Shown piece after piece: positions 18,504 through 24,543 of a stretch of DNA of 35,333 nt. How positions within the stretch are numbered: position 1 is the first letter of the stretch; each line of letters starts with the position of its first letter. A program made the translations under genes and the position numbers. Under the pieces are notes generated by a model. It saw nothing but the letters and a program-made list of their open reading frames with translations, did no database searches and had not been told where the DNA came from. The DNA is from a virus, in IMG/VR virus record IMGVR_UViG_3300028388_002506, positions 1 to 35,333 of that record; one strand, given 5' to 3'.

Positions 18504-20825
18504 CTAATTCCCCAGGATAACGCTAAGAATATCCCACATCGAGGCGTTATCCTTGCCGCTCACCCGCTCCACGGCATCGGCAAAGCGCCCCAGGCCGTTG
18601 ACCACCCGATTTAGGATCGAGTTTTTCTCGCCGGCAAGCTGGGCGAACGAATTTGTCATTTTAGTCGCCGAGACTTCCATCTTTTTGATCACACCGATCA
18701 TGCGCGACCCCACCGCCAGCTGCTTATTCTGGATCTCAGCTTGCTGGCGCAGATTAGGCCCCATGCGGGTGATCATCGCCTCTGCGGCCTTGGCGAGTTG
18801 CGCTGGGGTCTGGAGGCTCCCTGCCAGGCCTTCGCCGGCCTTGCGGCGCCCCCGCTCCGCGTCCAGGTAAGCCTGCTCGTCATCCGTGAGCTGGCGCCCT
18901 TCGGCCCGCTTGCCCAGGAGGGACATCTCCCGGGCACCCACCTGAACGCCCATTTTGCCCAGCTGGCGACGAGCGAATAGGCGCCCACCGGCACCGCCCC
19001 CGCCGGTTTGGACTAGGCGTTTGATCAGCTCAGGGGTGGCCCCGCCCGACTTTTGCATCTCCTCCATGCGGATAAAGGCCTGCTCGACCTCCCGGGCGCC
19101 ACCGCTTCCCGTGTAGCCCCCAAAAAGCTGCATGAGCATGAGATCAAGCCCGCCCGTCGGTCCGCGGGCGCCCATGCCCTGGACGTGCTGCTGGATGCCA
19201 GCGCCCACGGCTAAGGCCCTGGGCATCTGCAAGCCCCCCTCGCTCAGCTCGGAAGCAATGCCTTTAAGCGACTGCTCGGCCATGGGGATGCCCGTTTGGC
19301 GGAATTGATCGATCCCCGCGGCTACTTGCTGGAGGTATTGGGGCACCTCAGAGCCCACCAGTCCCAGCCGCACCGCATTGGTCAAGGCCAGCTGGAAGGC
19401 TTCGCCCGCTTGGCCATCCCCGCCGACCAGGCCCCCACGCCGGCCTGCCTGGAGGAACTTGCCAGACAAGCCCGGATCCACCCCGAATAGGGTGTTGGCC
19501 GCCATAGCCCGGGGGAGGATGCTTTGGGCCTGAGAGCCGCCTAGACGGCCCCCACCGGCCTGCAAGAGCATGGACGCCTCTTGGGCCGCTTCCTGCTCGC
19601 TCAAGCCCCTCAGGCGACTCCCTAGCCGCCTCAGGTCCCCAAAGGAGCGAGCTTCGTCGAGTTTTTGTTGGGCTTCACCGATTGCGCCCCGGCGCTCCAT
19701 GATTTTTTCGTTATACGGGGCCAGTCGTTCCCAAACTTCGCCGGTGGCCTCCCGGCGGAGTCGCTCGTCCTCCGATTCCCCCCTTTCCGGCCACGGGGGA
19801 GCGGGCGTCTTTCCCAGGAAAGCCGCTTTTTGCGCATCTGACGGGCCGCTTGGTCCCCCAAAGGTGTCGGTCACTACATCCCAGCCGCGGTCAAAGGCCC
19901 GACCGCGATCGGTGCCCGGTGCGGCGCCCCCCAAGCGCCGAATCATCCCCTTGGGCACCTCGGTCCAGGAAGGCTCATAGGATTCCCGGACTGCGGCGGC
20001 CGCCTCTTGGAGCGGCATGGGGATCTTGACCTCCGGGTAAGCCTCCCGCGTGCGAGCGAGCCCTGTTTCCGCGGCCTGGATTTCTCGGAGCTGCTGGGGA
20101 CCACCTAGCATGGGCGCCATGGCCACCTTTTGCCGCTGCCACTGGAGCGCCTGCTCCGCATAGGCGGCGCTGGTACCCAGCATTCCGGATAAGATGCCGC
20201 CGCCGGGGAGAGCGGCCAGGGCCTCCTGCATTCCAGGCAAGCCCGTGAAGGCCGCATGGCCGATTCCGCGCATCACGCCAAAGCCGCGGCGAAAGCCTCC
20301 GCCGGCCATCTGCCCGGCCATCTGCGCGCCCATACCCTGCCCGCGTTGGAGGAATAATCCCGCCGGCCCGGGCATAGCGGTTTGCGCAAACCCCTGTCCG
20401 AAGGCGGCCAGGCCCTCTTTGGTTGCCTGCTTGCGGTAATCCAGCGCGTCCTTTCGGGCTTTGGCCACCCGCTCCGCCGCGTCGGCTTCGTCGGCGTACA
20501 GCTGCCGAAGTAAACGCACCTCTTGGGTCAACCCCCGGGCCGCCTCCTTGGCCTTGTCCATGCGCTCTTGCTGCGTCTTCCAGGCTTCACTCCCCTGATC
20601 GGCGATGCCCTCCATGGCCCGGAGTGCGTCAACCTGCTCCTCCGTGAGGCCTTTGATCTTGGCCTGCAAACCCGATATGCGGGACTCGACCGCGGTGTAC
20701 TTCTCCGCCTGGGCCTTCAGTCCGTCAAGCGCGGCCTGATTCAAGCCGGTGACTTTCCGCATCAGCTTGTCCATGCCGCGGGACTCTCCCCGCACTACCA
20801 CGTTTGTCCTGGTTTCTCTTGCCAT
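18504..20825 (-). CDS. Tail tape measure protein
   Basis: This 773-aa protein directly follows the chaperone pair, the universal order. It begins with a basic segment (ARETRTNVVVRGESRGMDK) and long amphipathic helices with heptad spacing (about residues 35-140). These are followed by a Gly/Ala/Met-rich middle (about 140-260), a helical region, another Gly-rich region (about 440-640), and a helical end with NSFAQLAGEKNSILNRVVNG. No transglycosylase or peptidase motif is seen. The number of residues sets tail length; at about 0.15 nm per residue, a family rule of thumb, the tube would be about 115 nm. The many Gly-Gly-rich stretches are unusual for a tape measure, which is normally helical throughout. 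Confidence 0.85.
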   Translation of the reverse strand: MARETRTNVVVRGESRGMDKLMRKVTGLNQAALDGLKAQAEKYTAVESRISGLQAKIKGLTEEQVDALRAMEGIADQGSEAWKTQQERMDKAKEAARGLTQEVRLLRQLYADEADAAERVAKARKDALDYRKQATKEGLAAFGQGFAQTAMPGPAGLFLQRGQGMGAQMAGQMAGGGFRRGFGVMRGIGHAAFTGLPGMQEALAALPGGGILSGMLGTSAAYAEQALQWQRQKVAMAPMLGGPQQLREIQAAETGLARTREAYPEVKIPMPLQEAAAAVRESYEPSWTEVPKGMIRRLGGAAPGTDRGRAFDRGWDVVTDTFGGPSGPSDAQKAAFLGKTPAPPWPERGESEDERLRREATGEVWERLAPYNEKIMERRGAIGEAQQKLDEARSFGDLRRLGSRLRGLSEQEAAQEASMLLQAGGGRLGGSQAQSILPRAMAANTLFGVDPGLSGKFLQAGRRGGLVGGDGQAGEAFQLALTNAVRLGLVGSEVPQYLQQVAAGIDQFRQTGIPMAEQSLKGIASELSEGGLQMPRALAVGAGIQQHVQGMGARGPTGGLDLMLMQLFGGYTGSGGAREVEQAFIRMEEMQKSGGATPELIKRLVQTGGGGAGGRLFARRQLGKMGVQVGAREMSLLGKRAEGRQLTDDEQAYLDAERGRRKAGEGLAGSLQTPAQLAKAAEAMITRMGPNLRQQAEIQNKQLAVGSRMIGVIKKMEVSATKMTNSFAQLAGEKNSILNRVVNGLGRFADAVERVSGKDNASMWDILSVILGN

Positions 20826-20826
20826 G

Positions 20827-21189
20827 CTAGTCCTCGTCGAAGTCTGGGATCCGGCCTTCCGCGAATTCTCTTTCCCACTTGTCGATCAGGGCATCCTCAT
20901 CTTGATCCGTATCCTCGTCGAATATCGAGTTGAGCTCCCGCAAACGCCGGTGGAGCTCACCCGCATTGTCGCCGACACCATATTGATCTTCCAGCAGCTC
21001 CAAGATCTCATCTCGCTCCACCAGGAGGTCCTCCAAGATCTCCTGGTTCAAATCCTCCAACGTCCGGGACAAGAACAAGGGATGGTTCCCGGGCAGCTGG
21101 TATTTTTGACTCCACCATCGGCGGAGGCGCGAAAGCTCCTGCTGGTACTCAGTCTGCGCTTTCCTCTTGATCAGCTCCGAGTCCGTGAA
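20827..21189 (-). CDS. Tail assembly chaperone, frameshifted extension (gpGT-like)
   Basis: This frame has no acceptable start of its own. A TTG at 21078 would drop the residues RRWWSQKYQLPGNHP just before it, which look conserved and belong to this family. Read through a +1 shift from the upstream frame it adds about 119 residues to 144, a 263-aa fusion. The added part is helical and strongly acidic (LEDLNQEILEDLLVERDEIL, ending in FDED). In long-tailed phages the G and GT forms coat the tape measure in a fixed ratio. Its TAG is one base before the tape-measure ATG, as expected. Confidence 0.7.
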   Translation of the reverse strand, partial: FTDSELIKRKAQTEYQQELSRLRRWWSQKYQLPGNHPLFLSRTLEDLNQEILEDLLVERDEILELLEDQYGVGDNAGELHRRLRELNSIFDEDTDQDEDALIDKWEREFAEGRIPDFDED

Positions 21190-21619
21190 ACGCCGCCTCG
21201 TGGGCCATCACCTCCTCGAAGATGGCCTGGAGGAGCGACAGATCGATCAAGGCTTGCAGGTCCTTGGCCCAGTCCGGCCGCGTGACCAGGGTATAGGTCA
21301 TGTGCGAGACCATCAGGTTGATGTCGCTTGTCGTGATGTCCAGCGCATCCTGGGGCATCCCTCCGCTCAACTTGGCCCGCAGCACCCCGATCATCTGCCG
21401 GGTTTGGATATCCGGCACCTCATTGACAAACTCCCCCTTCCATACGCGCCCCCGCCGGTCCTTCCAATCCAACTGGAAGGTGTAGCGCCGTTCCTGCTTA
21501 GGATCGGCTTTCGGTTGGGGCTTTTGCTCTTGGGCCGGCGAGTCCTGCTTAAGCTCGTCAACCTTGAGGTGATCGGGTTTCAGACTTTCCAGGGTCGTGT
21601 CCAGCTTGGCTTGGTCCAT
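21149..21619 (-). CDS. Tail assembly chaperone, upstream frame (gpG-like)
   Basis: The ATG follows a perfect AGGAGGT site. The protein is 156 aa. Residues 1-45 are charged and disordered (Gln, Lys, Pro-rich). Residues about 46-145 are a compact domain (RRYTFQLDWKDRRGRVWKGE, VSHMTYTLVTRPDWAKDLQA, LSLLQAIFEEVMAHEAAF) like the short 'G' products encoded before the tape measure, which bind the tape measure during tail assembly. The frame ends at a TGA after only 12 residues of a charged tail (HGLGADQEESAD). A second open frame overlaps this end, suggesting that a fraction of ribosomes shift into it after residue 144. It is needed for assembly but is probably absent from virions, as in the family. 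Confidence 0.78.
   Translation of the reverse strand: MDQAKLDTTLESLKPDHLKVDELKQDSPAQEQKPQPKADPKQERRYTFQLDWKDRRGRVWKGEFVNEVPDIQTRQMIGVLRAKLSGGMPQDALDITTSDINLMVSHMTYTLVTRPDWAKDLQALIDLSLLQAIFEEVMAHEAAFHGLGADQEESAD
21187..21190 (-). promoter_or_regulatory. Probable +1 programmed frameshift site (UUU C) in tail chaperone
   Basis: At codon 144 (minus strand UUU, 21190-21188) the next base is C, so tRNA-Phe can re-pair in the +1 frame on UUC without mismatch. The +1 frame is open from 21207 to 20827, and it contains RRWWSQKYQLPGNHPLFLS, a 'W-W-Y-x-L-P-x-N-x-P-L' pattern like the 'T' part of tail chaperone pairs. No ATG or GTG start precedes this stretch in the second frame, and the only TTG has no visible ribosome binding site. 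A -2 shift, as reported for Mu, would give the same frame and cannot be excluded. Confidence 0.55.
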
Positions 21620-21745: not shown

Positions 21746-22204
21746 TTACTCGCCGGTCTCGTCGACCATCCTAATCGCGTTGAACTCGACCTCGGATCCT
21801 ACGATCCCACGAGCGTCCACGCTCCAGTTGAAGCTGGCGATCTTGACCTGCTGCAACGTGGCCAGGGTCTCGCCGGTCTTGGAATCCTCGATCGTGGCCA
21901 CGAGCTCGCCGGTCGTGAGGATGTTTTCCAGGTGCGTCCGGGGATCCTGGGCCACGGCGGGGAACCACCCGGCCTTTTTCAGGGTCTCGCCGACGATTCG
22001 GAACATGCTCGCGGTCAACGTGACTCGGTACCCGACGGGCACGAACTCCTCGACCTGGACGTTATCCAGGACTTCCATCGGCTCATAGGTCACCTGCTCG
22101 GAAACCGAGACGTTGCGGGCGTAACCGATCTGGACGCCCTGGACCTTGAATCGAGCCCTGGCCCCTGTGAATACGGCGCCCTTTTGCTTATCGCTCATTG
22201 CCAT
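21746..22204 (-). CDS. Tail tube protein
   Basis: The ATG follows AAGGAGCTGAACG, a strong site. The 152-aa length and position just after the sheath are typical of contractile tail tube proteins, which form hexameric rings that guide DNA. The pattern is beta-rich: ARFKVQGVQIGYARNVSVSE, MEVLDNVQVEEFVPVGYRVT, and the C-terminal WSVDARGIVGSEVEFNAIRM, with an 'E-F-N-A-I-R' ending similar to other tube proteins of Bacillus- and Mu-like groups. The middle LTASMFRIVGETLKKAGWFP is the characteristic helix. Sheath and tube are the last genes before a strong intrinsic terminator at 21672-21719, which fits the need for many copies. Confidence 0.87.
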   Translation of the reverse strand: MAMSDKQKGAVFTGARARFKVQGVQIGYARNVSVSEQVTYEPMEVLDNVQVEEFVPVGYRVTLTASMFRIVGETLKKAGWFPAVAQDPRTHLENILTTGELVATIEDSKTGETLATLQQVKIASFNWSVDARGIVGSEVEFNAIRMVDETGE

Positions 22205-22215
22205 CGTTCAGCTCC

Positions 22216-24543
22216 TTACGCAGACTGCTGGATCGTGACCAGGTGGAAGGTCGAAGCCACGAAGTTGATCGGAAGAACTGGCGCCATTTCCAGCTCGACG
22301 CTCAAGACGTCGACCACCAGATCGATGTTGAGACTCCGCCAGGCCACCAGAATTTGCTCGTCGATCAGGAGGCCGGCCAGGTTGACTACGACACCCTTTG
22401 CCGAATTGATCGTGCCGGAAAACCCCTTGCGGCCAACCACCACTTCCAGGTTGGTCCGCAGGGTGTAGGCGGCGTAGCTCGCGGCCTCCACCACGGAGGC
22501 CTCGCAGTAGGCCAGATTGTTCGAGGTGAGGTGGGTGGTGTTGTTGCGCACCACACGCCTCCCGACGCCCTCGACCTCCTCCAGGAAGCACAAGCCCGCC
22601 TGGATCATCTCTTCGCCATCGTCCACCGGGTTCCAGGCGCCGGATCCGCCCGCCTGCCGGAGGCTCAGCACGTTGGCATATTTGAAGGTCAGGGGGGTGC
22701 CGATCGGGCTGCCCGCCTGCATCCCGGCGATCGCGGCCGCCAGGTAGGGCGGATCGAATTCCTCCCGCTCGCCGGCGGTGTTGTACCGCTCGATTGCCTG
22801 CGCGACCGCCCGGGTGTACTTGGAATTGAGATCGATGATCTGCGATTTGATCTCCGCCTTGCTGGCCAAGTCGGTCCCACCTGAATTCAGGAGGCCGACC
22901 ACCACGTCCCGCTCCGACCGGCCCTGTCCGCACATATAGGCGGCGTGGGCATCCGCGGCCGCGTGGACCGAAGGATCATAGGTGAGGGGGACCACGGTAT
23001 TGACGCGCACCTGCTTGAGCAGATTCAGGGCGTCCTGCCAGTCCTGCGCGGTCGTGGTGCCCTCGACTCCGCCTGTCAGGTAGACCGGGGCGGTGGTGTT
23101 GCTCGGGGCTCCACCTGCGGCGCCCGTCGCCACCGTGGCGACGATCAGCGCGCTATTGTTTTCGATCCAATCCTGGATCGCCCACAGATCCGCGTAGAAA
23201 TCCGGGGCCGCCGGGGACAGACAGCTCACCGGGCCAGCGCCGTCGGTGGTATTGTCCAAATCCGCAGGGTCGAAGCTGGTCAGGCCGGTGTTGATGTTGC
23301 AAATGAACCCGTAGGTGGTGGCCACCGGGGTCCGGGACTTGGCGTTGAAGTAGTCCGCCACCTTTTGCAAGGTGTTGTGCGTGGCCGGGACCGTGCGTGC
23401 GGCTTCGGCGTTCAGCGTGACCGCGGTGGCCGCGGCGACCGCGCCGTAAGCGAGATACTGGAGCTCCGACCATTCCGCGACCCCCGGCACCGGGGTCGTG
23501 CCGTTCAGCGTGATCTGCTCCAGCTGGGCCGCGCCGGTCTTGCTCAAGCCGACCAGGACCAGATCATCGGTGGATGCGCCCCCTGCGACGGCCGTGACAG
23601 CGCCCTGAGCGACGTGGGTGTCCTCACAGGCGACCAGGCCCGCGGTCCCGTCGGTGCCGGCAGCGATCGTCAAGATCGTCGCCGGGTCATCGTCCGAGAC
23701 GGTCACGGTGCCGACTGTCGTACCCACGATCCGGGCCCCCAGCACCGCGGACATCGACACCTGCCCCGCCTGAGAGCTCGTGCCGTCCAGGGTGAAGGAC
23801 TCGCTCACGGCCGCGGTGCCGGCGGCGTTCAACCCGTACACGATCACCTGCATTCCCACGTCAAGGGCGTTGGAAGACACCACGTCCAGGACCGAGGCCG
23901 CGCTCGGTTGCGCCGTGATCTCCGAGTCCAAGCCCGACTCTTGCCGGGTGCCGGTGGCCACTACCGCGCCGCCGGCCTCGACCTCCGCGATCATCGCATC
24001 CCAGCCGGCGCCGCTGTCCACATAGGACAGATCGAACATCGAGTCACCGCCCAGATCATCCTTGACCTCGATGGTGTCCTCGAAAGTGATGGTCAGGAGC
24101 TTGCCCTGATTCGTGCCATCCGCGATGGTCACGTTGATCTGCGACGTGAAGGCGCCATAATCGGCGCTCACCAGGTCGAGGGCGTCCCCGTAGGTGTTGG
24201 CCAGGCTCCCGCTGGACTGGGTGGCGGGGTTGACTTTCATCGCGATCACTTGCGAAGCACCGCCGGGGATGTCCTGATCCTTGGAGGGCGCAAACAAAAT
24301 GTCCATGACTTCGCGCAGGGGGCCGCTGCGGAACAGCTGCCGGCCCTGCTCAGGCTTGGTCACGCGGATCAGATCTGCGGGCTCGGTGATCTCAGAGACC
24401 GGCTTGCCGCCCACCGCTTCGCCCAAGACCGCGACGATACCCGTGGCGCCCAGGCCTACGGACTCCAGACCCGAGGCGTCGATCACGGAATAGCTGCCGG
24501 GCCGGTAGAGCAACAGGCCGTTGAAAAACAGGGACGAGGGCAT
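22216..24543 (-). CDS. Contractile tail sheath protein with duplicated inserted beta domains
   Basis: AAAGGAGTG lies upstream of the ATG. The protein is 775 aa, larger than common 390-500 aa sheaths. The N-terminal region (RPGSYSVIDASG, GATGIVAVLGEAVGGKP) matches sheath starts that bind the tube, and residues about 480-775 (VYLTGGVEG, DWQDALNLLKQVRVNTVVPL, TLRTNLEVVVGRKGFSGTIN) match the conserved C-terminal domain and the arm that links neighbouring subunits. Between about 212 and 385 are two successive beta sandwiches that look like copies of one another: VIVYGLNAAGTAAVSESFTL and LVLVGLSKTGAAQLEQITLN. These would project outward. The sheath contracts on injection. Its presence establishes myovirus morphology. 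Confidence 0.92.
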   Translation of the reverse strand: MPSSLFFNGLLLYRPGSYSVIDASGLESVGLGATGIVAVLGEAVGGKPVSEITEPADLIRVTKPEQGRQLFRSGPLREVMDILFAPSKDQDIPGGASQVIAMKVNPATQSSGSLANTYGDALDLVSADYGAFTSQINVTIADGTNQGKLLTITFEDTIEVKDDLGGDSMFDLSYVDSGAGWDAMIAEVEAGGAVVATGTRQESGLDSEITAQPSAASVLDVVSSNALDVGMQVIVYGLNAAGTAAVSESFTLDGTSSQAGQVSMSAVLGARIVGTTVGTVTVSDDDPATILTIAAGTDGTAGLVACEDTHVAQGAVTAVAGGASTDDLVLVGLSKTGAAQLEQITLNGTTPVPGVAEWSELQYLAYGAVAAATAVTLNAEAARTVPATHNTLQKVADYFNAKSRTPVATTYGFICNINTGLTSFDPADLDNTTDGAGPVSCLSPAAPDFYADLWAIQDWIENNSALIVATVATGAAGGAPSNTTAPVYLTGGVEGTTTAQDWQDALNLLKQVRVNTVVPLTYDPSVHAAADAHAAYMCGQGRSERDVVVGLLNSGGTDLASKAEIKSQIIDLNSKYTRAVAQAIERYNTAGEREEFDPPYLAAAIAGMQAGSPIGTPLTFKYANVLSLRQAGGSGAWNPVDDGEEMIQAGLCFLEEVEGVGRRVVRNNTTHLTSNNLAYCEASVVEAASYAAYTLRTNLEVVVGRKGFSGTINSAKGVVVNLAGLLIDEQILVAWRSLNIDLVVDVLSVELEMAPVLPINFVASTFHLVTIQQSA

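Follow-up and report, generated by a model that had tools for sequence, protein, structure and literature searches.

Probable +1 ribosomal slippage at a conserved UUU-C in the tail assembly chaperone gene of an uncultured family of contractile-tailed phages

The tail assembly chaperone gene described here is, judging from sequence comparison, very probably read in two ways, a +1 slippage at UUU-C giving a longer fusion protein in addition to the short chaperone. The window (the whole stretch of DNA analysed) is a virus record of 35,333 bases that carries the pair on its minus strand, in the order tail sheath, tail tube candidate, chaperone pair, a tape-measure-like gene of 773 aa and then further tail and baseplate genes; this gene order, sheath included, identifies a contractile-tailed phage. 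Most ribosomes would stop at 21149, releasing a 156-aa chaperone, and a minority, with tRNA-Phe on UUU (21190-21188) in the P site and CAC in the A site, would slip +1 to UUC and continue in the +1 frame, yielding a 263-aa fusion and a short/extended chaperone pair like lambda G/GT. A Shine-Dalgarno (SD)-like element and an RNA stem upstream of the slip codon would stimulate the shift. By analogy with lambda, G would coat the tape measure and T would recruit the tail tube protein. The features, all on the minus strand, are:

22216-24543, minus strand: tail sheath, 775 aa (PHROG 279 tail sheath, E 6.7e-47)
21746-22204, minus strand: tail tube candidate, 152 aa, directly upstream of the pair (PHROG 985 virion structural protein, E 2.4e-10)
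21149-21619, minus strand: frame-0 gene, tail assembly chaperone, short G-like product, 156 aa (PHROG 25000, E 2.5e-9)
21191-21237, minus strand: upstream stem abutting the slip codon, CGCUCCUC (21237-21230) with GAGGCGGCG (21199-21191), enclosing an inner pairing
21207-21216, minus strand: internal SD-like element AGGAGGUGAU, a perfect 10-nt complement of the 16S 3' end
21187-21190, minus strand: putative slip site UUU C, where P-site tRNA-Phe would move from UUU to UUC (+1); TTT in 28/29 sequences, next base C or T
20827-21189, minus strand: +1-frame extension, T-like domain, 119 aa after F144 (from alignments; no start codon before the motif)
18504-20825, minus strand: tape measure protein gene, 773 aa, directly downstream (from position and length; weak match to PHROG 167 tape measure, E 0.03)

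The chaperone pair and its relatives

As in G/GT pairs, the two genes overlap and lie between tube and tape measure, and the upstream protein belongs to a chaperone family. Its identity as a tail assembly chaperone, already put forward in a preliminary description of this DNA, is borne out by PHROG 25000, which was also matched by the frame-0 products of 18 of 21 members, and by a profile match of frame-0 G to the SPO1 gp10.2 family (hhalign, E 9.3e-14). G and T were folded apart, as separate models. The AlphaFold2 model of G (pLDDT 87.6) led Foldseek to the tail assembly chaperones of Bacillus phage JL and Lactobacillus phage 521B; the T domain model is all-helical (pLDDT 87.4) and its fold search returned no convincing viral match. 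No convincing relative was found in the PDB, by sequence with G and T or by fold with G. SPO1 and HSTV-2 show the same order of sheath, tube, chaperone pair and tape measure, in agreement with the place of the tail tube candidate. In the long sheath-like protein the best-scoring stretch covers only residues 318-769, so that no best match is listed for a large part of its N-terminal side.

Homologues were collected by scanning viral contigs and bacterial genomes and, with near-duplicates set aside, amount to 28 loci beyond the window, in IMG/VR phages and in two Myxococcales metagenome-assembled genomes (MAGs). They come from independent contigs of many samples, with identities down to about 25-45%. 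When the window proteins and the G proteins of two relatives were compared by tblastn with 50,697 phage records, no match was returned; the G protein of locus L038 alone reached SPO1-like phages in tblastn, weakly, a homology later confirmed by profile comparison. The phylum to which the Myxococcales MAG belongs yielded no further copies in the 379 genomes scanned. One Myxococcales MAG (G002) contains four T-domain profile matches (L053, L054, L055 and L056) on separate contigs, and therefore several related prophages or tail-like elements in one host; those of its copies that were read have TTT CGC. In another relative, an HNH endonuclease gene (L014:4289-4696; Pfam HNH_3, E 8e-17) is inserted after the +1-frame T domain and separates it from the tape measure gene. 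The same relative has a GTG with an SD-like site (L014:3967) in overlap with the region of the frame-0 stop, from which translation of T could start again shortly before the tryptophan motif.

Frame relation and slip codon

Frame 0 runs from an ATG at 21619 to a TGA at 21149 (156 aa), and the second frame is open from 21207 to 20827 (126 codons), at +1 (equivalently -2) to frame 0 and overlapping it by 59 nt; these limits, as well as the UUU C at 21190-21187, had been given in the preliminary description and were confirmed on the minus strand. The second-frame motif RRWWSQKYQLPGNHPLF is also where it had been placed (21123-21073), and the alignments show conserved motifs in the T domain (WW..KY.LP..HPLF and DPLIDKWERE). 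No canonical start precedes the conserved W in the second frame of the window: the TTG at 21078, earlier taken to be the only one, is the first of several (TTG also at 21060 and 21051, GTG at 21021), and it holds for all of them that they do not precede the conserved motif. If UUUC is read as one Phe, the product is a fusion of 263 aa with its junction at F144 (144 residues of G and 119 of T), the length expected beforehand. The last predicted helix of G ends exactly at F144 in the AlphaFold2 model, so the shift would fall at a domain boundary.

The downstream frame is at +1 to the upstream frame in 28/28 homologous loci, in agreement with the direction first proposed, and none of these loci has both halves in one frame. 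All 28 keep the +1 arrangement and 27 of them keep TTT, which, on the sequences, places the two-frame arrangement far from chance. A lambda-type -1 shift was rejected, since the second frame is at +1 in all loci and the -1 frame with an X XXY YYZ heptamer is not what is found. Transcriptional slippage was also rejected, the site in the window having only three T.

In most members frame 0 ends with E-V-x-x-[HF]-E-x-x-F, whose last Phe is the slip codon, and in most near relatives the +1 frame resumes with F-[STAG]-[DE]. This Phe codon is TTT in 28 of the 29 sequences (the window plus 28 loci), against about 40% expected from codon usage. It is followed by C or T, which lets tRNA-Phe re-pair fully at +1; such re-pairing is found at this codon in 28/29 sequences and at each of the other overlap codons in 6 at most, which upholds UUU C as the slip site. 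The exception is L037, with TTC AAA in its place. Measured against the codon usage of each locus, TTT occurs in 25/26 (10.5 expected, P 2e-10), and among sequences below 45% identity in 14/15 (P 1.6e-5); matched Phe columns of the same genes have TTT in 9/24, 4/24, 5/12 and 11/20. Part of this conservation could be dual coding, because TTT also keeps Phe in the +1 frame. The A-site codon is CAC in the window, CTC in many relatives and CGN in some. It is not generally rare across loci, and a rare A-site codon was therefore discarded as a general driver; a rare CGN in the A site belongs to the CGN subtype and not to every UUU_C site.

Two other accounts of the overlap bear directly on these data. 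A -2 shift, as in phage Mu (PMC5009743), would reach the same frame with one residue added and had been left as an alternative in the preliminary description, but full -2 re-pairing is found in only 6/29 sequences at UUU and 2/29 at the next codon, never in the window, and the conserved slippery run of Mu is absent, so that it is now disfavoured and considered very improbable. The window being a metagenomic contig, the overlap might also come from a sequencing error or from a decayed gene; however, the same break at the same site, with both halves conserved, recurs across independent contigs of many samples at identities as low as about 25-45%, and this explanation can hardly be entertained.

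The SD-like element and the stem upstream of the slip codon

Immediately 5' of the slip codon there is strong constraint on the nucleotide sequence itself. In the window 20 nt separate GGAGG from UUU, and GGAGGUG is found 20 nt before UUU in nearly all members. Anti-SD pairing reaches -6 kcal/mol or better in 23/24 representatives and, when summed, is stronger than in any of 1000 synonymous-codon randomisations (z -6.9, 0/1000 as strong). The Glu codon inside the element is GAG in 20/20, against a frequency near 55% in most other Glu columns.

The 20 nt between this element and UUU are also more stably folded than their synonymous versions (z -6.9 and -6.4 in two folding windows, where windows elsewhere have a mean of -0.5 and an sd of 1.35), and the signal persists with strict representatives (z -4.4). 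This stretch reaches -6 kcal/mol or better in 11/24 members, and L033 has a perfect 8-bp stem in it (-16.4 kcal/mol). The window lacks the short spacer stem and has a longer one, whose 3' arm ends at the base before UUU and whose inner pairing joins GGCCAUC (21227-21221) with GAUGGCC (21209-21203); its minimum free energy is -24.1 kcal/mol in 51 nt, a value equalled or bettered by 7 of 200 dinucleotide shuffles, and its z against synonymous versions is -2.9. A duplex beside the E site may therefore form: the folding signal over the members has a z of about -6 to -7, and the stem of the window extends to position -1, but the register is variable and there is no covariation above shuffles. Fixed-register covariation did not exceed shuffles, the stem having no single register among members; the signal in the hold-out set as a whole was not significant (z -1.3); and several members lack the stem, among them the Myxococcales copies L047 and L054. 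The stem is therefore frequent, not universal. There was no sign of a downstream pseudoknot or hairpin, the region just 3' of the slip codon being less structured than expected.

The SD-like element could also be read as a ribosome binding site. In that case it (21216-21207) would serve a weak start nine nt later (ACG at 21201, ATG or TTG in some relatives), and G and T would be separate proteins. ACG is a weak initiator codon. The strongest SD-like site of the gene indeed stands at start-codon spacing from codon -11, and this codon is ATG in L023, L033 and L034 and TTG in L035, L038, L040 and L043 (7/29, with a good SD). A homologue with its own second-frame start and binding site had been named beforehand as evidence against a fusion, and such homologues do occur, but these seven keep UUU C or UUU U, and start-competent codons are not enriched at -11 (CAC, which gives ACG, in 13 against CAT, which gives ATG, in 3; TTC in 4 against TTT in 4). 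Moreover, the SD is kept with no start at -11 in L024, L037, L039 and the Myxococcales L047 and L054, and several members would have this start within a stable stem (-16.4 kcal/mol in L033) that would hinder initiation. Internal initiation also needs no UUU slip codon, although part of the TTT conservation is explained by its keeping the +1-frame Phe, and the SPO1 homologue is annotated as a fusion, against separate G and T. Initiation at -11 is the serious alternative for T, albeit an unlikely one, and could act in addition to slippage in some members.

Under +1 slippage, a duplex at the mRNA exit or E-site side would block backward movement and loosen pairing in the E and P sites. With 70S ribosomes, +1 shifting is increased and movement backwards is opposed by engineered hairpins placed upstream near the E site, and also by SD duplexes, an effect seen at a hungry A-site codon and with no RF2 (PMC6321510); the stem and SD described here resemble these engineered upstream duplexes, and the stem could act likewise. 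It is conceivable, if somewhat less than probable, that the two together make up a composite stimulator of +1 shifting that occurs in nature: the internal SD, strong and 20 nt away, would be combined with an RNA stem lying between it and the slip codon, and folding of the spacer would shorten the effective distance from SD to P site to a few nt, as in prfB, and allow slippage at UUU_C with neither a stop nor a hungry codon. Current models give no explanation for an SD 20 nt away with no stem, and the folded spacer may be what brings it to a prfB-like distance. Comparison of the loci establishes, at the level of sequence, how the two frames are related, that UUU-Y is nearly invariant, that the T domain is conserved and that the nucleotides just 5' of the slip codon are constrained; the efficiency of frameshifting and the roles of the SD-like element and the stem are inferred.

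Known +1 systems and meaning for the family

The closest known system is that of SPO1 (Herelleviridae), whose gp10.2/gp11.1 chaperone also lies between tail tube and tape measure and is annotated in its record as a +1 ribosomal slippage. Its G is homologous (hhalign, E 9e-14), the direction is also +1, and its slip site is TCC TTT CGT, the F-R position of which aligns with the slip codon of the family. It differs in the A-site codon (CGU, against CAC in the window), in a T domain that is only weakly similar, and in having neither an SD-like element nor a significant stem upstream. In SPO1 (L057:2747) and in Lysinibacillus phage LysYB1 (L058:2747) the nonamer UCC_UUU_CGU is identical to the influenza PA-X site; the LysYB1 annotation contains no join and gives two separate hypothetical proteins for the chaperone. 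In the haloarchaeal myoviruses HSTV-2 and HF1/HF2, a +1 shift in the tail chaperone has been proposed at TTT-CGC (PMC7230728); the site is TTT CGC in both HF2 and HSTV-2, and the HSTV-2 chaperone is annotated as a join. Their G proteins are not detectably homologous to that of the window, however, their hosts are archaeal, and their best SD-like site is weaker and located elsewhere. In both haloviruses the 51 nt that precede TTT-CGC are also more stably folded than their synonymous counterparts (HSTV-2, L048:15515, and HF2, L049; z -2.2 and -2.6), with no SD at that spacing.

In lambda (gpG/gpGT), as in most long-tailed phages, one mRNA likewise yields a short chaperone and an extended one ahead of the tape measure gene, although by a -1 shift on a slippery heptamer instead of +1 on UUU_C. 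Shifts of -1, -2 and +1 in the chaperones of tailed phages have been reviewed by Atkins and colleagues (PMC5009743), and the actinophage training data of PRFect include 350 forward sites (PMC10885494). The bacterial prfB (RF2) shares +1 P-site slippage with an upstream SD-like stimulator, but uses CUU_UGA, with a stop in the A site and the SD about 3 nt away, whereas the present sites have a sense codon, a distance of 20 nt and often a stem in between. Re-pairing of tRNA-Phe to UUC at UUU_C is described for influenza A PA-X (UCC_UUU_CGU; PMC3498833) and for plant amalgaviruses (UUU_CGN; PMC5052127), +1 shifts that take place on eukaryotic ribosomes, with a rare CGN codon implicated and no SD.

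Given the SPO1 homology with aligned slip codons and the halovirus TTT-CGC, the +1 shift at UUU_C is of a known kind, found here in a new environmental family. The novelty lies in the family itself, in how deeply the slip position is conserved, and in the upstream SD and stem, which are absent from SPO1-like phages. No phage paper describing such an SD and stem was found in the open-licence literature searched, which is not proof of absence.

Far less is understood of +1 frameshifting than of -1, and in bacteria it mostly depends on a stop or a starved codon. The approximately 28 natural, diverged versions of this site, in which the A site holds a sense codon and the SD and stem upstream are constrained, constitute a ready test series for how upstream duplexes may push ribosomes forward. 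The T domain would be missed by gene finders that look only for -1 shifts, and one conserved slip position links the SPO1-like phages to a large uncultured group of contractile-tailed phages.
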